Shown here: positions 31,633-42,019 of the stretch, piece by piece
Position numbering within the stretch: the stretch's first letter is position 1
Layout: every line of letters begins with the position of its first letter
Assembly (NCBI RefSeq): GCF_002807665.1
Contig: NZ_PEAY01000001.1
Span: forward strand, 620,001-684,000
Source of the DNA: Neoalteromonas facilis
GTDB taxonomy: Bacteria; Pseudomonadota; Gammaproteobacteria; Enterobacterales; Alteromonadaceae
DNA: 64,000 bases
Reading direction: 5' to 3'
Made by a program: the position numbers and the translations under genes
Notes under the pieces: generated by a model
The model's database searches: none
What the model was told of the DNA's origin: nothing
The model's input: the letters and a program-made list of their open reading frames with translations, nothing else

Positions 31633-32724
31633 ATGAGTACAAATCAAGAGGAAATGCTGTTCCTCTCGCAGATATTCAACAACGTAAAGCCCGTTAGCTT
31701 GATCCGACAAGTGCTAGCTAATTCAGTTACGCCGATAGTAATAACCGACGCAGGTCAGGTCGATGGCCAATATAAAATCATTTACGCCAACAAAGCGTTT
31801 TGCCGTTTAAACGGGTACGAACTTGCCGAAATTGTGGGTCTTTCGCCCAAAATCCTTCAAGGCCCTAATAGCAATTATGATGGTTTAAAAAAATTAAGCG
31901 AGTCTTTAGAAACGACCGGTTATGCGCGCGGCATGTCACAAAATTATCGAAAAGACGGTAGCTGTTACCCTGTTTCGTGGGATATATCGCCGATCAGAAA
32001 CGAGAGTGGCGCAGTTGAAATGTATATTTCCGGTCAACGCGACCTAACCACATTGGTAGAACGCGCCAAAAACGCTAAAACCCTTAACGAACAAGTGATA
32101 AACCTGATTAATGATTTAACATCGGGTAAAAAACAGGCCGAGAATATCAAACATTCCGAAAGCAAACTTCTAAACAGTTTAAAAAACAATGCATCTAACT
32201 ATGTATCAACGTCAGCTACTGAGGCTGACGACGCTGACGATGATTTGTTTATAGAACTGGATGCTATGGATTTAGTGGAGGAACCTAATCCTCCCTTTCA
32301 ACAGCGAATGAGCGCGTCAGAGTACCTAGCCAATGGCCATTTGACGCAGGAAGAAATCAATACGCTTATTCAAACTCTCAGAGACATAGAAGAAGAAGTT
32401 GAATGCTTGTCTGCAGAGCAAAGCGACCTATCTCAAATCGAATTTATTCGAGAGAAAATTGCCCAATTATCTGATGACATCTTTTTCTTAGTTGAATTTA
32501 CCGACACATCTTTAGCCTTGAATGAAGTGGCGGAAGTATTGGCTTCAATAGATGATAACACCCTTACAGAACTCCACATTACCGTTCTAAAATCCCTCGT
32601 TGAAGAAGTGGATACATGGCTAGTGGGTATATTTGTTACTCGTACGGCGCAAAATATTTTTGATGGCGCCAAGTCGGTCAACTCGGCAGCCAAGCAATTT
32701 GTGTCTTTTGTTAAGCCCAAATAG
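31633..32724 (+). CDS. PAS domain protein, LOV-like without the photoactive Cys
   Basis: A 363-residue cytoplasmic protein. One PAS domain covers about 23-140 (SVTPIVITDAG, NKAFCRLNGYELAEIVG, YRKDGSCYPVSWDISPIR). The segment GLSPKILQGPNSN lies where LOV photoreceptors have GxNCRFLQG, but the flavin-adduct Cys is replaced, so it is probably not a blue-light LOV sensor. The C-terminal half is acidic and helical (about 225-360, rich in Glu, Ser and Leu) and contains no kinase, GGDEF or HTH motif. It ends 204 bp before the V-ATPase operon on the same strand; a role in sensing for that operon is possible but only positional. Confidence 0.82.
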   Translation: MSTNQEEMLFLSQIFNNVKPVSLIRQVLANSVTPIVITDAGQVDGQYKIIYANKAFCRLNGYELAEIVGLSPKILQGPNSNYDGLKKLSESLETTGYARGMSQNYRKDGSCYPVSWDISPIRNESGAVEMYISGQRDLTTLVERAKNAKTLNEQVINLINDLTSGKKQAENIKHSESKLLNSLKNNASNYVSTSATEADDADDDLFIELDAMDLVEEPNPPFQQRMSASEYLANGHLTQEEINTLIQTLRDIEEEVECLSAEQSDLSQIEFIREKIAQLSDDIFFLVEFTDTSLALNEVAEVLASIDDNTLTELHITVLKSLVEEVDTWLVGIFVTRTAQNIFDGAKSVNSAAKQFVSFVKPK

Positions 32725-32928: not shown

Positions 32929-34311
32929 GTGCAACAATTAATCCGTTACTCACGCATCCTTGAAATTGTAGGAGACATTTTAAAAGTCAGCGTGTCTGAT
33001 GAAGCTGATAACCGACCTACAGACATGGCGATCCGGTTAGGTGATTTAGCCTTAGTTCGCACCGAGCATGAAGAGTCGTTGCCCGCACAAATCATTAGCA
33101 TCGATCGGAATATTGTATCGCTACAGGTCTTTGCAGGCACAAAAGGAATATCCAGTAGTGCCAGTGTTACCTTTCTCGGCCACCCTATTCAAACCACATA
33201 CTCACCCAACATTTTGGGTAGAGTTTTCGATGGCCTCGGTCGCCCATTAGATAAAGGGCCCGATCTCAGCTTAGATCCAAAAATCAATATTGGTGGCCCA
33301 TCCGTCAATCCGTGCGAACGGATCGTACCGAAAAAAATGATACGTACTGATGTCCCGATGATTGATGTATTCAACTGTCTGGTTGAAAGTCAAAAAATAC
33401 CACTATTTTCAGTTTCTGGTGAGCCATTCAACCCTTTCCTCGCGCGCATCGGCATTCAAGCTGACGCAGACATCGTGATCTTTGGTGGACTAGGGCTTAT
33501 TTTCGATGACTATTATCGCTTCAGAAAAAGCTTTGAAGACGCTGGCGTGTTTGCTCGAACCGTCATGTTTGTTAATCAAGCCTCCGACCCCATAGTTGAA
33601 AGGCTAATGGTGGCCGATATGGCACTTGCGGTAGCCGAAAGATTTGCCATAGAAGAAAGCAAACGCGTACTGGTATTACTGACAGATATGACCGCATATG
33701 CCGATGCCATGAAAGAAGTTGGCATCGCAATGGAACGCGTTCCGTCCAACCGCGGTTACATGGGGGACCTCTATTCTCAACTCGCAAGACGATATGAAAA
33801 AGCCTGCGACTACGCTAAGGGAGGTTCAGTTACTATTCTCTCGGTCACAACCATGCCCGGCGATGACGTCACTCACCCTGTGCCTGACAACACGGGTTAC
33901 ATTACTGAAGGGCAATTTTATTTGCACAACGGGGTTATCGACCCGTTTGGTTCATTGTCCCGATTAAAACAAAACGTCATTGGCAAAATTACCCGCGATG
34001 ATCACAGTCAGTTAATGAACACGATGATCCGCTTTTATTCTGAAGCCCAGGACGCACAAAAGAAAAAGGCAATGGCATTTGAATTGTCTGCCTACGACCA
34101 TCAACTATTGAAGTTTGGCGATTTATTTAAAACGCGCTTTATGGATATCAATGTGTCTATGCCCTTAGAGCAAGCATTGGATATGTGCTGGCAAACCCTC
34201 GCTGAATGCTTCTCGGCCGAACAACTGTTAATGAAACAAGCGTTGATCGATAAGTATTTCCATTCGTCAACGAGTGAGGAAAGCCAGTATGGCGCGACTG
34301 CAACTGAATAA
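32929..34311 (+). CDS. V-type ATP synthase subunit B
   Basis: A 460-residue non-catalytic nucleotide-binding subunit. The barrel domain begins ILEIVGDILKVS; NILGRVFDGLGRPLDKGP and VGEEASDP-like text VNQASDPIVERL and PSNRGYMGDLYSQLARRYEKA are strongly conserved B-subunit features, followed by VTHPVPDNTGYITEGQ. There is no Walker A, as expected for B. The start is GTG 32929 with AAGGGAG 8 nt upstream. It opens an operon whose genes overlap or touch. In most bacteria with this ATPase type A precedes B; here B comes first. Confidence 0.96.
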   Translation: MQQLIRYSRILEIVGDILKVSVSDEADNRPTDMAIRLGDLALVRTEHEESLPAQIISIDRNIVSLQVFAGTKGISSSASVTFLGHPIQTTYSPNILGRVFDGLGRPLDKGPDLSLDPKINIGGPSVNPCERIVPKKMIRTDVPMIDVFNCLVESQKIPLFSVSGEPFNPFLARIGIQADADIVIFGGLGLIFDDYYRFRKSFEDAGVFARTVMFVNQASDPIVERLMVADMALAVAERFAIEESKRVLVLLTDMTAYADAMKEVGIAMERVPSNRGYMGDLYSQLARRYEKACDYAKGGSVTILSVTTMPGDDVTHPVPDNTGYITEGQFYLHNGVIDPFGSLSRLKQNVIGKITRDDHSQLMNTMIRFYSEAQDAQKKKAMAFELSAYDHQLLKFGDLFKTRFMDINVSMPLEQALDMCWQTLAECFSAEQLLMKQALIDKYFHSSTSEESQYGATATE

Positions 34312-34894
34312 ATCGGCACTGGCAAAAGAGTCGCACAACTTAAAAACGTATCAGCGCTTTTTACCGTCTCTCGATCTCAAACGGCAGCAATTAATGGCAG
34401 AAAGAGCCAACGCGAGAAACGATTTGGTCCGTTTAGAGCAAGAAAACGCAGTATTGCTAAAGTCCATTGCCGACAAAGCACCAATGTTAGCCAATTCAGA
34501 CATATCGCTAGAAAACTTAGTGAGTATCGCGGATATCGAGATTGATGAAGAGAATATTGTCGGTACTCGGCTGCCGGTATTAACGTCATACAACGTCGTA
34601 ACTAAACCTTACAGTTATTTCAGCAAGCCACATTGGGTCGATTATGTATGCCGTCAACTCGCAAAAGCACTGCTACTCGATATTCAACTGCAGGTACAAC
34701 GCAAGCGCATAAAACTTTTAGAAAAAGCAGTATCGACCATAACCCAACGGGTCAATTTATTCGATAAAGTACTTATTCCCAAAGCTAAAGATAACATCAA
34801 GCGCATCAGAATTTATTTATCCGATGAACAAATGGTGTCAGTCGTACGCTCTAAAATAGCTAAACGCAAACATGCTCAACGGAGAGTCGAATGA
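34289..34894 (+). CDS. V-type ATP synthase subunit D
   Basis: A 201-residue central-stalk rotor subunit, a long antiparallel coiled coil. It begins MARLQLNKSALAKE and keeps KRQQLMAE (about 32-39); the C-terminal helix has QRVNLFDKVLIPKAKDNIKRI, the most conserved stretch of the family. The chosen ATG 34289 has GAGGAAA upstream; the gene overlaps B by 23 bp. D normally pairs with subunit F, which is absent from this operon. Confidence 0.95.
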   Translation: MARLQLNKSALAKESHNLKTYQRFLPSLDLKRQQLMAERANARNDLVRLEQENAVLLKSIADKAPMLANSDISLENLVSIADIEIDEENIVGTRLPVLTSYNVVTKPYSYFSKPHWVDYVCRQLAKALLLDIQLQVQRKRIKLLEKAVSTITQRVNLFDKVLIPKAKDNIKRIRIYLSDEQMVSVVRSKIAKRKHAQRRVE

Positions 34895-36702
34895 GTATTG
34901 CGCGACTTAAAAAAGTCACCTTTATCATGTTGAAAAAGCACAAGCCGGACTTTCTGGCAAAATTACAAACGTTGGGTTGTGCTCACATAATGCCGCTCAA
35001 TAAAGCACAAGATGGCAAAGTCGCCGCACCAACAGAAAGGCGCTCACCCAGAGCAGAGCGAACTTACAACGCCATAATGTTCCTAGAGTCTGTTTCGAAT
35101 AAACGTCGACCATTGAGCCGTGCGAATGATTTTGATGTTGAACAAGTCAGTCAAGAAGCGCTACAAATCAAATCTGCCTTGCGGGACGCTAGTGATAAAG
35201 CCGATTTTCTGCGTAAGCGTATCCAGGATATGAAACCGTGGGGAGACATCGAATTCCCACCTAACGAAGAGTTAAAAGGCTATCACTTATGGTTCTATAT
35301 GTTGCCTCGCAACAAAATGGAAAGCCTGCAACAAATTGAGCTCCCCTGGCAAATTGTGAGCATTACTCCACGTTTTGCTTATGTAGTGGTGATTGCAAAA
35401 CAAGAGCCACAGCCAGATTTACTTCCTGTTGCAAGAACTCACGTTGGTGCATTACCAATGCAGGAGCTATCTCTTCAATTAGAGCAACTGCATGCGCAAA
35501 TCGAAGATCTGCAATCGCAAAGAGAAGCGCTCACCCGATACTTGCTACTGATGCGGTTGCATTTGGCTGAGGCTGACGACAAAGCACTGTTGAAATTTGC
35601 CGGAACCCAAACACTCGACAATGAGAATTGGGTGATACTACAAGCTTGGGTGCCTACGGCCGCCATTCCCGCACTCGATCAGCTATGTGATTCATTCGAA
35701 TGCGCACGGATTGAGCAATCCCCCTCCGTCACTGACGAACCACCAACGCTTATTGAACAGCCAGAGATTCTGGCAGCTGGCAAAGATATGAGTTTGTTTT
35801 ATCAAACACCGCATTATCGAAGCTGGGATCCGAGCAAAGTTTTGCTCGCTTCTTTTTGCCTATTCTTCTCTATGATACTCGCCGATGCTGGCTATGGCAT
35901 CGTACTATTAGTCGCCTTGCTACTGAGTAAAAAACACATTACGCAAAAAAGTCACGGTCATGCGTATTACCTACTCGGCCTATGCCTTTCCGTTACCACT
36001 GTTTTGTACGGTGTTATGGTCGGCAGTTATTTTGGTATGACACCGAGTGAGTCCCACTGGCTGGGTAAACTGCACATACTGAATCTAAACGATTTTGACA
36101 GCATGATGCAGTTATCTATTTTTATTGGTGCCATTCACATAGGTATAGCAAACGCAATGCAAGCGTTCACCTTGCGTCACAACACACGAAAGTGGTCGTC
36201 GCTTGGTTGGATATGTTTGATCATCGCCGGTGTATTGGTGTGGCAATACAAACATATTGAAGCACTCTACATCTTAGCTGTGTGCGTAGCGGTAATTGGC
36301 GTTGTCTTGATAACACTGTTTTCGACCACAGAAACGCCCCTTGCCCCCAAACAACGCGTACTAGAAATGCTTAAAGGGCTACTCAAACTTACTGGGATCA
36401 TGGGGATCTTTGGCGATGTGTTGAGCTATATGCGGCTGTTTGCCCTGGGGTTAGCCAGCGCGTCGTTGGCGATCACTTTCAATCAATTGGCCGCCGATGT
36501 TTACCACAGTTCGCCGGGTTTGGGGCTATTGGGCGCCATCTTAATCCTATTGATCGGCCATATTTTGAATATCGCACTATCGTTGATAAGCGGCGTGGTA
36601 CATGGGTTACGTTTGAATTTTATTGAATTTTATAAATGGGGACTCCCCAATGAAGGTAAACCGTTTCAACGGTTTGCACGCAAGGAGATTAATCATGAAT
36701 GA
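34891..36702 (+). CDS. V-type ATP synthase subunit I (a-subunit)
   Basis: A 603-residue membrane stator subunit. The cytoplasmic N-terminal half (about 1-310) is helical, with the usual pattern of LEQLHAQIEDLQSQREAL. The membrane half (about 320-595) has about seven to eight helices: DAGYGIVLL, TVLYGVMVGSYFG, and the proton- or sodium-channel helix GDVLSYMRLFALGLASASLA, in which the Arg is the essential counter-charge for the rotor carboxylate. The ATG overlaps the D stop by 4 bp, and its 3' end overlaps K by 8 bp. Confidence 0.95.
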   Translation: MSIARLKKVTFIMLKKHKPDFLAKLQTLGCAHIMPLNKAQDGKVAAPTERRSPRAERTYNAIMFLESVSNKRRPLSRANDFDVEQVSQEALQIKSALRDASDKADFLRKRIQDMKPWGDIEFPPNEELKGYHLWFYMLPRNKMESLQQIELPWQIVSITPRFAYVVVIAKQEPQPDLLPVARTHVGALPMQELSLQLEQLHAQIEDLQSQREALTRYLLLMRLHLAEADDKALLKFAGTQTLDNENWVILQAWVPTAAIPALDQLCDSFECARIEQSPSVTDEPPTLIEQPEILAAGKDMSLFYQTPHYRSWDPSKVLLASFCLFFSMILADAGYGIVLLVALLLSKKHITQKSHGHAYYLLGLCLSVTTVLYGVMVGSYFGMTPSESHWLGKLHILNLNDFDSMMQLSIFIGAIHIGIANAMQAFTLRHNTRKWSSLGWICLIIAGVLVWQYKHIEALYILAVCVAVIGVVLITLFSTTETPLAPKQRVLEMLKGLLKLTGIMGIFGDVLSYMRLFALGLASASLAITFNQLAADVYHSSPGLGLLGAILILLIGHILNIALSLISGVVHGLRLNFIEFYKWGLPNEGKPFQRFARKEINHE

Positions 36703-37150
36703 GTTTGTCATCGCACTTGGCTGGTTCGGTATATATGCCCCAATGGCATTGGGCGCAATTGGCAGTGCAATTGGCTGTGGTATTGCGGGACAGGCAGGCA
36801 TTGGCGCAATGGTTGAAACAGAAGGGGGATATGGAAAATACATTGGTATTTCCGCCTTCCCTTCTACATTTGTGATCTACGGCATCGTGATCATGTTCAC
36901 GCTGAACCGTGTGGTAACCATCGAAAACGCAGGTGGATTATTTGGCGTTGGACTGCTTGCTGGTATCGCCATGCTTTACAGCGGTATATGGCAAGGTAAA
37001 GCCTGTGCTTCCGCCATCAATGCAGCAAAAGAAAAACCTGAGATTTTCGGTCTATCACTGGCCCCGGCAGCCATCATCGAAGGATTTGCTGTTTTTGCAT
37101 TTGTTTTCGCTTTAGTCGTTAGCGGCGGTATCGCTGGAGGTACTTTATGA
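36695..37150 (+). CDS. V-type ATP synthase subunit K (rotor proteolipid)
   Basis: A 151-residue four-helix proteolipid made of two fused hairpins. The ATG at 36695 follows AAGGAG. The ion-binding Glu is E129 in IIEGFAVFAF (helix 4); the corresponding helix 2 site is PSTFVIYG without a carboxylate, so there is one ion site per four helices as in V-type rotors. Compared with the Na+-binding ring of Enterococcus hirae NtpK as I recall it, Thr (T58), the helix 3 Gln (Q100) and the Glu are kept, but the helix 2 Gln is Phe (F59). A canonical Na+ site is therefore doubtful. It is followed by subunit E with a 4-bp overlap. Confidence 0.96.
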   Translation: MNEFVIALGWFGIYAPMALGAIGSAIGCGIAGQAGIGAMVETEGGYGKYIGISAFPSTFVIYGIVIMFTLNRVVTIENAGGLFGVGLLAGIAMLYSGIWQGKACASAINAAKEKPEIFGLSLAPAAIIEGFAVFAFVFALVVSGGIAGGTL

Positions 37151-37836
37151 ATGAAAAGCCAGGGCACGAGCATATAGTATCGCGCGGTGTTGACGAACTG
37201 ATAGAGCGTTTAAAATCCGAAGGCGTTGCCGCGGGTCAAGCAAAAGCGGATACCATTGTTGAGGAAGCGAAGCAAAAAGCAAGACAGTTGATAACTGAGG
37301 CAAAGAAAGAATCAGAAGAGCGTTTGCAAAAAGCCCGAATAGAGGCGCAATCGTTCCAACAAGCCGCTGAATCAGCACTCAAAACCGCCATGCGAGATAT
37401 GGTATTAGAATTAAAAGCTGACTTAACGCGCGAATTCAGCCACGATCTGCAGCGCCTTGTTGTAGAGGCAACACAACAGCCGGAATTGCTCGAAAAAATG
37501 ATATTAGAAATCGTCGGACAAACATCGGCGCCGGTCAGCAATGCCGACAACGTTCAATTGCTTTTGCCAGAGAAAATTGTAGGTCTTGAGGAACTTCGCA
37601 GTGATCCAAAAACATTGCATGAAGGAGCATTGTCAAATTTAGTCTTCAACCTAACACGCGACATGCTGAAAAACGGCGTTACGTTTGCTGCTTCGGATGA
37701 ACTTGATGGCGGCATACACATTAAATTGGTTGACCAAAACGTGACTTTAGATTTAAGCGATACAGCTGTGGCCACACTGCTCTTACAGCATTTGCAACCG
37801 CGTTTTAGGGCAATCCTTGAGGGCGTTATTCGATGA
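37147..37836 (+). CDS. V-type ATP synthase subunit E (peripheral stalk)
   Basis: A 229-residue peripheral-stalk subunit. The N-terminal half is a long charged helix (AKADTIVEEAKQKARQLI and later KARIEAQSFQQAAESALK), which pairs with a G/H subunit in classical enzymes; no G gene is present here. The C-terminal globular domain, GLEELRSDPKTLH to the end with GGIHIKLVDQNVTLDLS, binds the top of A/B. The gene starts in the stop of K. In Chlamydia-type operons E is the first gene, whereas here it is fifth. Confidence 0.93.
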   Translation: MNEKPGHEHIVSRGVDELIERLKSEGVAAGQAKADTIVEEAKQKARQLITEAKKESEERLQKARIEAQSFQQAAESALKTAMRDMVLELKADLTREFSHDLQRLVVEATQQPELLEKMILEIVGQTSAPVSNADNVQLLLPEKIVGLEELRSDPKTLHEGALSNLVFNLTRDMLKNGVTFAASDELDGGIHIKLVDQNVTLDLSDTAVATLLLQHLQPRFRAILEGVIR

Positions 37837-38531
37837 GCGCTTTTAGCGAAGACAAGTATGTAATGCTGATATCGAGCTTGCCCAGCCCGAATGGCTTGTT
37901 TAAATCTAGCCATACCCCGTTATCAAGGATAAAACTAGAACAGCGTCTAAGTGTTTTATCACCAGCTGAGCACACAATATTGGCGAGTGTGGAAAAGGCC
38001 TTAGACTGGCGCTTTTTAGATGCTGATATGTCTGATGAAATGATACGAGCACTAGATTTACACGCGATATCAAGTGTTCGTAATGAAACATTGAGTCTTA
38101 TCATTCGAAACCGTTTAGAAATGCGGACGCTTATCGCAGCTACGAGAATGCGTCACAACGGGAAAGCCAAGCCCTCCAGCGCACGGTGGGGTTTTGGACG
38201 ATGGCAAACACATATCATTAACCATTGGCAGGAAGCCGACTTTGCATTGAGTCATTTATTCCCATGGATAAATGAGTTTCGCCAGCATATTGAAAACGAC
38301 AACCCAGTGTTAGCTGAGCGTCTAATTCTGACTGAATCATTTAAACAATTGCAGCGACTCAGCCATCAACATAGGTTTGATTTTGAAGCCGTCGTCATTT
38401 ACGTCTTGAAATGGAACATTTTGGATCGCTCACTGAATAGTAATGGTTATCAGGCACAACGACGTTTTGAACAGTTAGTTAAACAGGGCTTGGGACAATA
38501 TCGACAGCTATTTACTCAGGAGGCACGATAA
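37833..38531 (+). CDS. DUF2764 family V-ATPase-associated protein
   Basis: A 232-residue soluble helical protein starting with YVMLISSLPSPNGL, the beginning typical of DUF2764 proteins that lie between E and A in chlamydial, spirochaetal and Bacteroidetes V-ATPase operons. Other features: WRFLDADMSDEMIRALDL, RMRHNGKAKP, ERLILTESFKQLQRL, and FDFEAVVIYVLKWNILDR. No catalytic motif. Classical V/A-ATPases have subunit C (d) as the central-stalk socket; none is encoded here, so this protein may replace it. That role is an inference from co-occurrence. It overlaps E by 4 bp and abuts A. Confidence 0.85.
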   Translation: MSAFSEDKYVMLISSLPSPNGLFKSSHTPLSRIKLEQRLSVLSPAEHTILASVEKALDWRFLDADMSDEMIRALDLHAISSVRNETLSLIIRNRLEMRTLIAATRMRHNGKAKPSSARWGFGRWQTHIINHWQEADFALSHLFPWINEFRQHIENDNPVLAERLILTESFKQLQRLSHQHRFDFEAVVIYVLKWNILDRSLNSNGYQAQRRFEQLVKQGLGQYRQLFTQEAR

Positions 38532-40343
38532 ATGGAAGCTGATAGCATACAAAAAGCATCAGCTCGGATTGTGGCTGTGCAAGACGATTTGGTGGAAATT
38601 CAATTACTTGACCCAACTACCAGCAGCTTAACTAAAAATGAAGTCATCTATGTTTGCCCCAAGGTGGATGCAAGTGCACCACATGAGGAGTGGCTAAAGG
38701 CTGAGATACTGCGCGTTAGAGGAGACTGCGCAGATGCTCAGGTATATGAAAGCACTCAGGGCGTTGCTATTGGCGATCCGGTTTACCAGACCCAACAAAT
38801 GCTGTCGGTAGAACTGGGCCCCGGATTATTGGGGCAAGTGTATGATGGTCTGCAAAGTCCATTGCCTGAACTGGCTAATCAATGCGGTACTTTTTTACCC
38901 AGAGGATATCGTGTAAACCCGTTAGATACTCACAAAAAATGGTCGTTTGTCCCAAGTCGAAAAAGCGGTGACAAACTGCATGCTGGTGATTGCATTGGTG
39001 TTGTCCAAGAAGGACGGATCAGTCACAAAATCATGTTGCCATTTGATTGGCGCGGCGAATTTCTGTTGGATTGGATCCAAGAAGGTAATTTTACTGTTGA
39101 TGATGCGGTAGCAAAGGTAGTAGACAATCACCAACGAAAACACCGCATTACCCTTAAGCAATCGTGGCCCGTGCGAAAACCACTTAACCGGAAACTGGTT
39201 AAAAATGGCTATTCTGAGCGACTATACCCGGCAGAGCCTTTACTCACTTCACAACGCTTAATTGATACCTTTTTCCCAATTGCCAGAGGCGGAACCGCGT
39301 GTATTCCCGGCCCTTTTGGCGCGGGTAAAACCGTATTGCAAAATCTGATTTCTCGCCACGCTGCGGTCGATGTGGTCATCGTCGTTGCCTGTGGCGAACG
39401 TGCTGGCGAAGTGGTTGAAACTATTACAGAGTTTCCTCACATGACAGATCCACACACTGGTGGCACGTTAATGGATCGTACCATTATCATTTGCAATACC
39501 TCTTCCATGCCGGTCGCCGCTCGAGAAGCATCGATATATACTGGCATAACGATTGGCGAGTATTATCAGCAAATGGGATTGGATGTGCTGCTCATTGCTG
39601 ACTCAACGTCGCGATGGGCGCAAGCCATGCGAGAAACCTCGGGACGACTTGAAGAGATCCCCGGCGAAGAAGGGTTCCCTGCCTATCTAGAATCATCGAT
39701 TAAAAGTGTCTATGAGCGAGCTGGCAGCGTCCGTACAAACGACAAAGCGATCGGCAGCCTGACGCTTATTGGTACTGTTTCCCCAGCCGGCGGAAACTTT
39801 GATGAACCAGTTACACAATCAACCCTATCTACGGTGAAATGCTTTCTGGGCTTGTCGGCAGATCGCGCATACAAACGCTTTTATCCGGCTGTAGATCCCC
39901 TCCTCTCATGGTCCCGGTATTCCGAACAACTTCACGATTGGTTTGATGAACACCAACAGCCCGGCTGGAGTGCACAAGTCGCTGCGCTGCAAGCGATGCT
40001 TCATCACGGTGATGCAGTTTTGCAAATGATGCAAGTAACCGGCGAAGAAGGCGTCACGCTAGAAGACTTTATCGTGTATCAAAAAGCATTATTTATCGAT
40101 ATGGTTTACTTACAACAGGATGCATTCGACCCCATTGATGCCGCCTGTGTTATGTCTCGTCAAAAACTACTGTTCAATCTAATTTGCGACTACACCCAGC
40201 AAGACTACGACTTCAGTGATAAGCAGCAAGCACGCGACTTTTTCACTCGGTTAACAGGCAAATTTAAAAACTTTAACTATGCGGAAACCGGAACTCCGAG
40301 CTATCAGACGTTACTTGAAGAGATACAGAACCATAAAATTTAA
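38532..40343 (+). CDS. V-type ATP synthase subunit A (catalytic)
   Basis: A 603-residue catalytic subunit. Walker A is GPFGAGKTVLQ (about 258-268), followed by VACGERAGEVVE with the catalytic Glu, then ADSTSRWAQAMRE and GRLEEIPGEEGFPAYL (Walker B and the alpha-helix of the A subunit). The non-homologous bulge domain of V/A-type A subunits is at about 115-190 (GQVYDGLQSPL onward). It starts directly after the DUF2764 stop and ends the operon. All residues needed for ATP hydrolysis are visible. Confidence 0.97.
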   Translation: MEADSIQKASARIVAVQDDLVEIQLLDPTTSSLTKNEVIYVCPKVDASAPHEEWLKAEILRVRGDCADAQVYESTQGVAIGDPVYQTQQMLSVELGPGLLGQVYDGLQSPLPELANQCGTFLPRGYRVNPLDTHKKWSFVPSRKSGDKLHAGDCIGVVQEGRISHKIMLPFDWRGEFLLDWIQEGNFTVDDAVAKVVDNHQRKHRITLKQSWPVRKPLNRKLVKNGYSERLYPAEPLLTSQRLIDTFFPIARGGTACIPGPFGAGKTVLQNLISRHAAVDVVIVVACGERAGEVVETITEFPHMTDPHTGGTLMDRTIIICNTSSMPVAAREASIYTGITIGEYYQQMGLDVLLIADSTSRWAQAMRETSGRLEEIPGEEGFPAYLESSIKSVYERAGSVRTNDKAIGSLTLIGTVSPAGGNFDEPVTQSTLSTVKCFLGLSADRAYKRFYPAVDPLLSWSRYSEQLHDWFDEHQQPGWSAQVAALQAMLHHGDAVLQMMQVTGEEGVTLEDFIVYQKALFIDMVYLQQDAFDPIDAACVMSRQKLLFNLICDYTQQDYDFSDKQQARDFFTRLTGKFKNFNYAETGTPSYQTLLEEIQNHKI

Positions 40344-40617: not shown

Positions 40618-41562
40618 ATGGAATTAATCTTCAACTATCTATTTACCGCGCAAGCGTTGCTACTTGTTCTTGTCGTAATATTGCTTAAGTCATCGGTGAA
40701 ATTCGTACCACAAAACCGTGCATTCATCATCGAACGATTCGGCAAATACACAACGACCTTAGAAGCAGGCTTAAATTTTATCGTCCCCTTTATTGACCGT
40801 GTTGCTGCGGATAGAAGCTTAAAAGAACAAGCGGTCGATGTACCCGAGCAAAGTGCGATTACTAAAGACAATATTACATTGTCAGTTGACGGGGTTTTGT
40901 ATTTTCGTGTCATCGACGCCTATAAAGCAACATATGGTGTAGAGCACTATACCTTTGCGGTAACGCAACTGGCGCAAACCACAATGCGTAGCGAAATTGG
41001 TAAATTAGAGCTGGATAAAACATTTGAAGAGCGCGATGCGCTAAATACCAATATCGTGTACGCACTGAATGAAGCAGCCTCTCCTTGGGGTGTGCAGGTA
41101 TTGCGTTATGAACTGAAAGATATTAATCCACCCAATTCCGTTTTAGATGCAATGGAACAGCAAATGCGCGCCGAGCGTGTAAAACGTGCACAAATTCTTG
41201 AGTCTGAGGGTGATAGACAGGCCGCAATCAACCGTGCGGAAGGTGACAAAGCCGCTATAGTACTGGCTGCTGAAGCTGACAAAGAGCAACAAATTCTAAA
41301 AGCCGAAGGTGAAGCGCAAGCCATTACCCGCGTAGCAGCGGCTGAGGCTGAAGCGATTGAAACCATTGGTAAAGCAGCGGCGACAAGTGAAGGCCAAAAA
41401 GCAATTCAACTTGATCTTGCAAAAGGCGCTATTACCGCCAAAGAAAAAATCGCCAAAGAAAGTTCAGTGGTTTTGTTGCCTGAGAGCAATACTGAAATCG
41501 GTGGAGTTGTTGCGCAAGCCATGTCAATCATCAACACATTAAATTCAAACAAGGGTGCATAG
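40618..41562 (+). CDS. SPFH/band 7 domain protein (QmcA-like)
   Basis: A 314-residue membrane-anchored stomatin-type protein. An N-terminal helix (AQALLLVLVVILL, about 11-23) precedes the band-7 domain (about 28-200) with VPQNRAFIIERFGKYTTTLEAGLNFIVPF, VDGVLYFRVIDAYKATYGV and SPWGVQVLRYELKDINPP. A long Ala/Glu coiled-coil (about 190-270) supports oligomeric rings. E. coli QmcA/YbbK is the close analogue, and SPFH proteins with NfeD partners organise inner-membrane microdomains. It is 4 bp upstream of the NfeD gene and follows the V-ATPase operon by 274 bp. Confidence 0.94.
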   Translation: MELIFNYLFTAQALLLVLVVILLKSSVKFVPQNRAFIIERFGKYTTTLEAGLNFIVPFIDRVAADRSLKEQAVDVPEQSAITKDNITLSVDGVLYFRVIDAYKATYGVEHYTFAVTQLAQTTMRSEIGKLELDKTFEERDALNTNIVYALNEAASPWGVQVLRYELKDINPPNSVLDAMEQQMRAERVKRAQILESEGDRQAAINRAEGDKAAIVLAAEADKEQQILKAEGEAQAITRVAAAEAEAIETIGKAAATSEGQKAIQLDLAKGAITAKEKIAKESSVVLLPESNTEIGGVVAQAMSIINTLNSNKGA

Positions 41563-41566
41563 TCTT

Positions 41567-42019
41567 ATGGATAACATGCTAACCAGCATGCCTCACTTGT
41601 TTCTGGGCATTGGCGTTTTGTTACTCATCTTGGAAGTCCTGGTCGGTTTTACCACTGTTCTAATGATGACCTTAGGCCTTTCAATGATGATCACATCAGG
41701 TTTAATGTACGCCGATATTCTAGAAGAAAACATGCTTCACGCGTTTATCGCGGTTGCTGTATTGGATAGCATTTTACTGGCTATTCTTTATCGCCCGATG
41801 AAAAAGATGCAACACGATAAGGCGCCGAATGAAGTGAAATCGGATCTGATTGGCAACACGTTTGACGTCGACAGTGATATTGAGCCGGGGCAAAGAGCCA
41901 TGCAAAAGTATTCTGGGGTTAATTGGCAAATAAAGTGTCAATCACCGCTTAAAAAAGGCGAGTTAGTCAAGATCACTCACGTTGATGTAGGCGTGTTGCA
42001 TGTAGAACCAATACAGTAA
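41567..42019 (+). CDS. NfeD family membrane protein (short type)
   Basis: A 150-residue protein with about three hydrophobic helices in the first 80 residues (LFLGIGVLLLILEVLVGF, MMTLGLSMMITSGLM, FIAVAVLDSILLAI) and a C-terminal OB-fold domain (about 95-150: VKSDLIGNTFDVDSDIEPGQ, WQIKCQSPLKKGELVKI). It is the usual partner of SPFH proteins such as QmcA. The ATG at 41567 is preferred; a GTG four codons upstream overlaps the SPFH gene stop. Confidence 0.9.
   Translation: MDNMLTSMPHLFLGIGVLLLILEVLVGFTTVLMMTLGLSMMITSGLMYADILEENMLHAFIAVAVLDSILLAILYRPMKKMQHDKAPNEVKSDLIGNTFDVDSDIEPGQRAMQKYSGVNWQIKCQSPLKKGELVKITHVDVGVLHVEPIQ

Follow-up and report, generated by a model that had tools for sequence, protein, structure and literature searches.

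The window, a stretch of 64,000 nucleotides of Neoalteromonas facilis DNA, was found to carry a seven-gene operon for a V-type rotary ATPase of the minimal class, with its genes in the order B-D-I-K-E-X-A (X being the DUF2764 gene) and not in the order E-X-A-B-D-I-K of the spirochaetes. The overall explanation, in which we have reasonable confidence, is that of a working minimal V-ATPase from a clade with this rotated order, in which DUF2764 would serve as subunit C and the enzyme would probably be a proton pump.

Gene Content and Junctions of the Operon

The seven ORFs were all open across positions 32929–40343, with zero internal stops (Table 1). These intact ORFs ruled out a frameshift or gene decay, in A and B as in the other genes. 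Chance would by no means give seven specific family matches in collinear order, and the sequence-only reading of seven tightly packed genes for a minimal V-type ATPase was borne out. The most likely start of atpD was read from the sequence as the ATG at 34289, from which the overlap with atpB is 23 bp; the other overlaps, read in the same way, were of 4 bp (D/I, K/E and E/DUF2764) and 8 bp (I/K), and DUF2764 and A abut.

Table 1. Genes of the V-type ATPase operon, in window positions.
Gene	Product	Position	Strand	Evidence
atpB	V-type ATPase subunit B	32929..34311	+	GTG start; NF002555 E 2.8e-209
atpD	Subunit D, central shaft	34274..34894 (ORF as listed)	+	PF01813 E 1.2e-35; NF002565 E 4.9e-58, over cut-off
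atpI	Subunit I, membrane stator	34891..36702	+	PF01496 E 2.9e-11, over cut-off; NF004429 E 1.2e-69, below cut-off
atpK	Double-hairpin ring subunit	36695..37150	+	NF007200 E 2.5e-52; PF00137 (ATP-synt_C), two stretches
atpE	Subunit E, peripheral stalk	37147..37836	+	NF002424 E 3.2e-28, below cut-off
DUF2764 gene (X)	Probable shortened subunit C (AC39) homologue	37833..38531	+	PF10962 E 1.1e-5
atpA	Catalytic subunit A	38532..40343	+	NF003220 E 3.1e-231; P-loop GPFGAGKT intact

The V/A type was recognized by a subunit A carrying both the P-loop and the extra barrel-sandwich domain (ATP-synt_ab_Xtn, E 7.1e-27), accompanied by B, D, I, K and E, the last through a match below cut-off; the Pfam scan of the atpE product gave no match. 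The DUF2764 product scored 25.7 bits against PF10962 (cut-off 24.1), and the presence of its gene within an operon that has no subunit F corresponds to the minimal DUF2764 class. In the whole genome, subunit F was not found (PF01990, best E 0.353, inside an 854-aa frame), and PF01992, the family of classical subunit C, gave no match at E ≤ 10, DUF2764 included. The earlier statement that a classical subunit C is absent was literally right, yet DUF2764 is probably a shortened homologue of C, as argued below. Judged from its sequence, the operon probably encodes a complete and working V-type rotary ATPase of this class. The minimal V-ATPases of spirochaetes, chlamydiae and Bacteroides share the seven genes and families and a double-hairpin K, as judged from the loci examined here together with PMC6349859 and PMC10790697.

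In the proposed mechanism, ATP would be hydrolysed in a head made of A and B; D would be the shaft, with E as peripheral stalk, I as membrane stator and K as the ring, and DUF2764 would probably seat the shaft on the ring in place of C, without subunit F.

Gene Orders as Cuts of One Ring

A scan of genome contigs with the single A protein gave no confirmed match, and confirmed loci were obtained by an alignment-based scan. Among 95 loci examined, the rotated order was complete in 53 and truncated in five, and E-X-A-B-D-I-K was complete in 16, seven of them from Spirochaetota, and truncated in 12; as the alignment scan contributed the 80 best of its 527 confirmed loci and near-duplicates were left in, these counts are not prevalences. 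The order was undecidable in 9/95 and mixed orders were seen in none. Hence, the difference from the spirochaete order claimed in the sequence-only reading was found in the loci themselves, and its extension to chlamydiae and Bacteroidetes stands on print: a passage of PMC6349859 likens the order ‘atpEXABDIK’ to that of Spirochetes and Chlamydiales, and one of PMC10790697 gives DUF2764 as the second gene of the Bacteroides operon.

The rotated order occurred in Gammaproteobacteria, Alphaproteobacteria, Cyanobacteria, Planctomycetota, Nitrospirota and Gemmatimonadota (five phyla), and all gammaproteobacterial loci examined that had a decided order shared it except one (L041), contrary to the earlier idea of a rotation within this lineage. 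In another locus, L061, A stood alone and the other operon genes were unrecognised across its 18 kb. The gene order marks an operon lineage that is old and common to proteobacteria, cyanobacteria and other phyla, rather than being a local accident.

Furthermore, an archaeal-type order, I-K-E-C-(F)-A-B-D, was found in six of the ten examined regions that had I, K, E, C, A, B and D all assigned. The archaeal V/A-ATPase shares homologous A, B, D, I, K and E subunits and a like cyclic order with the operon of the window, but it has C and F, its linear order begins at I and it lies on a long separate branch. All three orders can be read off a single gene ring, I-K-E-C/X-A-B-D, from different starting points, and in this ring DUF2764 occupies the place of subunit C between E and A. 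The ring would have been cut at D/I in archaeal operons, at K/E in those of the spirochaete type and at A/B in the rotated clade.

A tree of the A subunit with an archaeal-type root was computed from loci of decided order only, namely 33 rotated rows hand-picked from the 53 complete ones, all 28 rows of the spirochaete-type order and 11 outgroup rows. The two orders formed sister clades (SH-aLRT 99 and 95), the rows of each order falling on one side of a branch, in quick IQ-TREE runs in which L040, L041 and L019 were long rows. Since the orders are sister clades, the tree does not show descent of either one from its sister. One order might have arisen from the other through a tandem duplication that then lost its opposite ends, and not by separate cuts, which we place a little short of an even chance: a duplication with deletion, or else a circular excision, would account for the cyclic relation among the three orders, but the rooted tree gives no direction between sisters and a duplicated intermediate was not noticed in the gene tables of the loci.

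Ion Specificity of the K Ring

In the alignment to 2bl2, Phe59 of the window’s K falls at the position of Gln65, a Na+ ligand of Enterococcus hirae NtpK, so the full Na+ ligand set is not present; the equivalents Thr58, Gln100 and Glu129 are retained. Leu occupies the Gln65 position in solved K chains such as 6qum_O, which we take to be a Thermus chain. The corresponding column of the K alignment held 57 Gln, 12 Met, 7 Phe and 1 Gly (n = 77; Gln lost in 20), with three changes at this position on the tree over 75 labelled rows. Unlike the K of the window, that of the spirochaete type kept Gln in 19/19.

The loss of one Na+ ligand (Gln to Phe59) therefore predicts proton coupling, and the ring of the window probably moves protons. 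The remaining side-chain ligands are kept, so that the ring might still carry Na+. An enzyme that goes on pumping Na+ despite Phe59 is nevertheless the less likely reading. It draws on the three retained equivalents and on a passage of PMC2359735 which considers it possible that ligands are replaced or reshuffled in subunits of the double-hairpin type; against it stand the Leu of solved chains such as 6qum_O and the rule, given in the same source, that the Gln65 position is polar in Na+ enzymes and aliphatic in H+ enzymes. With proton coupling as the preferred reading, the enzyme would most likely be an ATP-driven proton pump beside the F- and N-type ATPases of the cell. The gene set, its order, the split of the two orders on one branch and the ligand change were observed directly; the ion, the direction, the activity and the identity of DUF2764 as subunit C are inferred.

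DUF2764 as a Probable Shortened Subunit C

Several profile comparisons suggest that DUF2764 is probably a shortened homologue of subunit C (AC39) doing its job. The hhalign comparison of DUF2764 with AC39 gave a score of 36.2 (P 2.5e-4, probability 43%), against at most 18.7 for reversed alignments, 21.5 for six other subunits, 21.1 for 60 column shuffles and 28.6 for 60 block shuffles. When halved, the comparison gave a score of 28.1 (P 0.0042) with rotated members only and 27.0 over 39 columns (P 0.0047) with spirochaete members only, both below the best block shuffle, which keeps real segments. The similarity is weak and lies in the C-terminal part of AC39.

Additionally, in a search of 456 ORFs with the DUF2764 profile, C proteins took the first three ranks, with 5/10 C proteins at rank 27 or lower, and the AC39 profile, run on 3667 ORFs, placed X proteins in 15 of the top 16 ranks, none individually significant (best E 0.09). 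In the Pfam scan of 65 DUF2764 members, AC39 was the only other family matched by more than one (two members, best E 0.066).

Subunit C is folded into three helical domains that form a funnel. The DUF2764 models are all helical (pLDDT 91.9 for the AlphaFold model) but shorter, most members having 175–250 aa vs about 340–370 aa in subunit C (e.g., 1R5Z). In Foldseek searches of the PDB with two confident DUF2764 models, no match reached E ≤ 0.001, and subunit C was absent among the matches listed (50 of 173 and 50 of 65); the best PDB sequence match of the DUF2764 profile had E 0.72.

The absence of subunit C from these Foldseek matches and from the genome by Pfam would suit a DUF2764 that is a class-specific subunit or assembly factor without relation to C, the enzyme being truly devoid of C, as would a passage of PMC2936114 that gives Borrelia-, Kuenenia- and chlamydial-type clusters as lacking C, F and G homologues. 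We regard this as less likely, because DUF2764 sits between E and A, where C would be expected, the profile comparison and reciprocal rankings favor AC39 over other subunit families, and the Pfam matches, though only 2/65, point to AC39 too. The one unexplained gene of the operon appears to encode a relative, long overlooked, of an established motor subunit.

Probable Horizontal Spread and Meaning

The A subunit of the window grouped with those of Roseobacteraceae and Paracoccaceae, and DUF2764 was patchy, being present in 2/4 genomes of the genus and 3/196 of the family. The rotated order spans Proteobacteria plus four other phyla and therefore supports horizontal transfer, so that the operon would be a member of a distinct clade that has likely spread horizontally. 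Acquisition of an E-X-A-B-D-I-K operon by this lineage followed by local rearrangement, as proposed at first, would account for the patchiness and for an order unlike that of spirochaetes, but is very improbable, since 53 loci from five phyla have the identical order in full and the orders split on a single branch of the A tree. Only the horizontal part of that proposal is retained. Table 1 of PMC2359735 already listed V-ATPases in Gammaproteobacteria, and in several other of these groups, in 2008.

A broader generalization, for which we see the chances as evenly balanced, is that DUF2764 would be a drastically shortened subunit C in Bacteroides, spirochaetes, chlamydiae and the rotated clade, that most prokaryotic V-ATPase operons would be cuts of one ancestral ring at a site fixed per clade, and that a single-residue change would three times have turned the ring of the rotated clade from Na+ to H+. 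Minimal bacterial clusters are stated to lack subunit C in part of PMC2936114, and DUF2764 is left unexplained in a section of PMC10790697 that nonetheless reports a strong effect of the operon on Bacteroides fragilis fitness in deoxycholate. In the open-access literature searched, neither the rotated class nor DUF2764 as subunit C was found described. Should DUF2764 prove to be subunit C, shaft and ring would be coupled in the usual way in the minimal enzyme, which would offer structural work a target for which the prediction is clear. In the rotated clade, moreover, the gene order has stayed constant across phyla despite transfer, a clean example of an order set clade by clade, and the Gln ligand, lost repeatedly, provides a natural series in which to test what decides between Na+ and H+.

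The genome of the window also encodes F1 beta and alpha of both the standard and the alternate (N-type) kind; the N-type F1F0 enzyme is likewise rotary, but belongs to the F-type family, with other subunits and at another locus. A conserved neighbor travelling with the operon was sought by ORF clustering in 52 of the 58 rotated loci (six near-duplicates dropped; ORFs picked by length, with antisense frames often retained) and rejected, as only small families of 4–6 loci emerged, the large clusters being taken for operon genes and antisense frames. In one sister genome, a pyruvate formate-lyase gene and that of its activase lie directly upstream of the operon, a hint at anaerobic use.

Operon Content and Neighborhood

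The sequence-only reading had proposed a tightly joined seven-gene V-type ATPase operon, and all seven genes, in the order B-D-I-K-E-DUF2764-A, were indeed found present, intact and closely packed. No frameshift, which would have spoken against that reading, was found in A or B; subunit A retains its P-loop and subunit K is a double hairpin. The suggested lack of subunit F and of classical subunit C (AC39, PF01992) extended to the whole genome, since neither was found by a genome-wide profile search. Standard and alternate (N-type) F1 beta/alpha genes, assigned as alpha and beta by profile, were located on other contigs, C22 and C19 (loci L020 and L021). With these standard and N-type F1F0 genes beside the V-type operon, the genome encodes three rotary ATPases.

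In the sister genome (G001), pyruvate formate-lyase and its activase lie directly upstream of the operon, with a gap of 98 bp between activase and B; in the window these two genes are not so placed beside it. The adjacency in G001 hints at ATP-driven pumping during fermentation, pumping being the presumed direction.

Coordinates of the operon, its neighbors and features at compared loci
Feature	Location	Remark
V-type ATPase operon	window 32929-40343	seven genes
PAS/LOV-like protein	window 31633-32724	upstream of operon; E 5.5e-21 to the YtvA family, under the cut-off
Band-7/HflK-like gene overlapped with NfeD-domain gene	window 40618-42019	just downstream of operon
Pyruvate formate-lyase and activase	L015:3749-6804	G001, sister species
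DUF2764 and A about 6 kb apart	L058:3500-9741	tubeworm endosymbiont MAG; operon otherwise rotated, truncated
A gene alone	L061:8256-10073	Methylococcaceae MAG contig, 18 kb; other operon genes unrecognized

Distribution of the Gene Order

With the genome of the window counted each time, DUF2764 (PF10962, here X) was detected in two of four genomes of the genus and in 3 of 196 of the family, and an A subunit at E <= 1e-100 in 4 of 247 of the taxonomic order, one of which (G200) is apparently archaeal-type, with no DUF2764 match seen beside A. The DUF2764 profile matched 10 of 369 genomes of the class sample, again including that of the window; eight of these ten loci showed the rotated order B-D-I-K-E-X-A, one the spirochaete-type order E-X-A-B-D-I-K (L041) and one was undecided (L042), although the profile was made from rotated operons and may favor them.

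Bacterial and archaeal genomes were scanned as well, and the best 80 of 527 loci kept; these also placed the rotated order in Rhodobacterales, Stappia, Cyanobacteria, Planctomycetota, Nitrospirota and Gemmatimonadota, and the spirochaete-type order in Spirochaetota, Kiritimatiellota, Verrucomicrobiota, Lentisphaerota, Fibrobacterota, Omnitrophota and two Bacillota MAGs. Altogether, 95 loci (drawn in part from these best 80 of 527) comprised 53 complete and 5 truncated rotated operons, 16 complete and 12 truncated spirochaete-type operons and 9 undecided cases; none of the 95 mixed the two orders, and Planctomycetota held both (3 rotated, 1 spirochaete-type). The packing is looser at L058 and at L060, where B and D lie about 2 kb apart. 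One genome (G153) carries two complete rotated operons on separate contigs (L017 and L018), whose A subunits are about 60% identical to that of the window.

In PMC2359735, V-ATPases are recorded for Stappia, Beggiatoa, Neptuniibacter, Nitrococcus, Nitrosococcus and Synechococcus, gene order aside. No description of the rotated order, or of DUF2764 as subunit C, was found in searches of one open-access library.

Phylogeny of Subunit A

On a tree of 33 rotated, 28 spirochaete-type and 11 outgroup A sequences (archaeal and archaeal-type enzymes), a single branch set the rotated rows apart, and another did so for the spirochaete-type rows (SH-aLRT 99 and 95); only two changes, the minimum possible, are needed for the three groups. 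A larger tree, in which some order labels were presumed, agreed. The A subunit of the window grouped first with G001 and G626, of its own family, and then with Roseobacteraceae, Paracoccaceae and one gammaproteobacterial MAG. This grouping supports the horizontal acquisition proposed earlier, as a transfer between classes. The accompanying proposal, a rearrangement after acquisition in this lineage, was not borne out, as the tree points to a much older gene-order event. Operon and window differ little in GC content (0.459 and 0.447), and a recent arrival is therefore not indicated by composition.

Two records may be mislabeled: the A subunit of L068, named Salinisphaera sp. G21_0, is nearly identical to that of Endozoicomonas, and a Methanomicrobiales MAG contig (L102), possibly misbinned, bears an operon of the DUF2764 type that groups with an Omnitrophota MAG.

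One Circular Order and the Identity of DUF2764

Gene order was read in ten AC39-bearing regions, nine archaeal and one from Treponema. Six (L172, L175 and L177-L180) showed I-K-E-C-A-B-D with all seven genes assigned, L172 having extra frames before D; L171 was without an assigned E, and L173 and L174 without an assigned D. Subunit F, judged by eye from small frames and with no profile, was not seen in L179. Drawn as a circle, the archaeal order is identical to both E-X-A-B-D-I-K and B-D-I-K-E-X-A, with X taking the position of C(-F). This rule has an exception: a Treponema MAG (L176) has an archaeal-type operon ordered C-I-K-F-E-A-B-D.

The position of X where C stands suggested that it is subunit C, which was then tested, and we consider DUF2764 probably, if not securely, an AC39 homolog. 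A profile-profile comparison of 65 DUF2764 with 34 AC39 proteins scored 36.2 (P 2.5e-4, probability 43%), the match spanning AC39 columns 210-335 of 369. All full-alignment controls were lower: at most 18.7 for reversed alignments, 21.5 for other subunits, 21.1 for 60 column shuffles and 28.6 for 60 block shuffles. The halves of the DUF2764 alignment scored 28.1 and 27.0 (P 0.0042 and 0.0047) on overlapping parts of AC39, not exceeding the best block shuffle (28.6). With the AC39 profile, X scores exceeded those of each of six other subunit families, the rows being related and the test values thus inflated, and X supplied 15 of the top 16 among 3667 ORFs, the best E being only 0.09. Conversely, the X profile ranked C proteins 1, 2 and 3 among 456 ORFs (E 5e-4, 1e-3 and 0.03), and five of ten C proteins at 27 or lower.

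A Pfam scan gave a weak AC39 match in 2 of the 65 DUF2764 members, and the Pfam AC39 model matched nowhere in the genome of the window. AC39 matched seven control genomes, including Bacteroides ihuae, and six of the seven matches were over the cut-off. Subunit C was absent from the 50 Foldseek matches listed, of 173 and of 65, for each of two confident DUF2764 models (pLDDT 91.9 and 92.7). Such minimal clusters are described as being without C, F and G in PMC2936114, and DUF2764 is treated as unknown in PMC10790697.

Ion Specificity of the K Ring

When K of the window was aligned to E. hirae NtpK (2bl2), Phe59 stood opposite the Na+ ligand Gln65 (numbering as in PMC2359735). Among 77 K subunits this position held Gln in 57, Met in 12, Phe in 7 and Gly in 1, with Gln in 19 of 19 spirochaete-type and 38 of 58 rotated operons. 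The other ligands were conserved: Ser/Thr and the second Gln in 77 of 77, and Glu in 76, with one gap. Mapped on the A tree, the loss of Gln took three changes; on the larger tree these lie in the group of the window and Rhodobacterales, among the cyanobacteria and in two Methylococcales. According to PMC2359735, Na+ enzymes have a polar residue here and H+ enzymes an aliphatic one. That criterion names neither Phe nor Met, so that reading the K of the window as an H+ type extends it.
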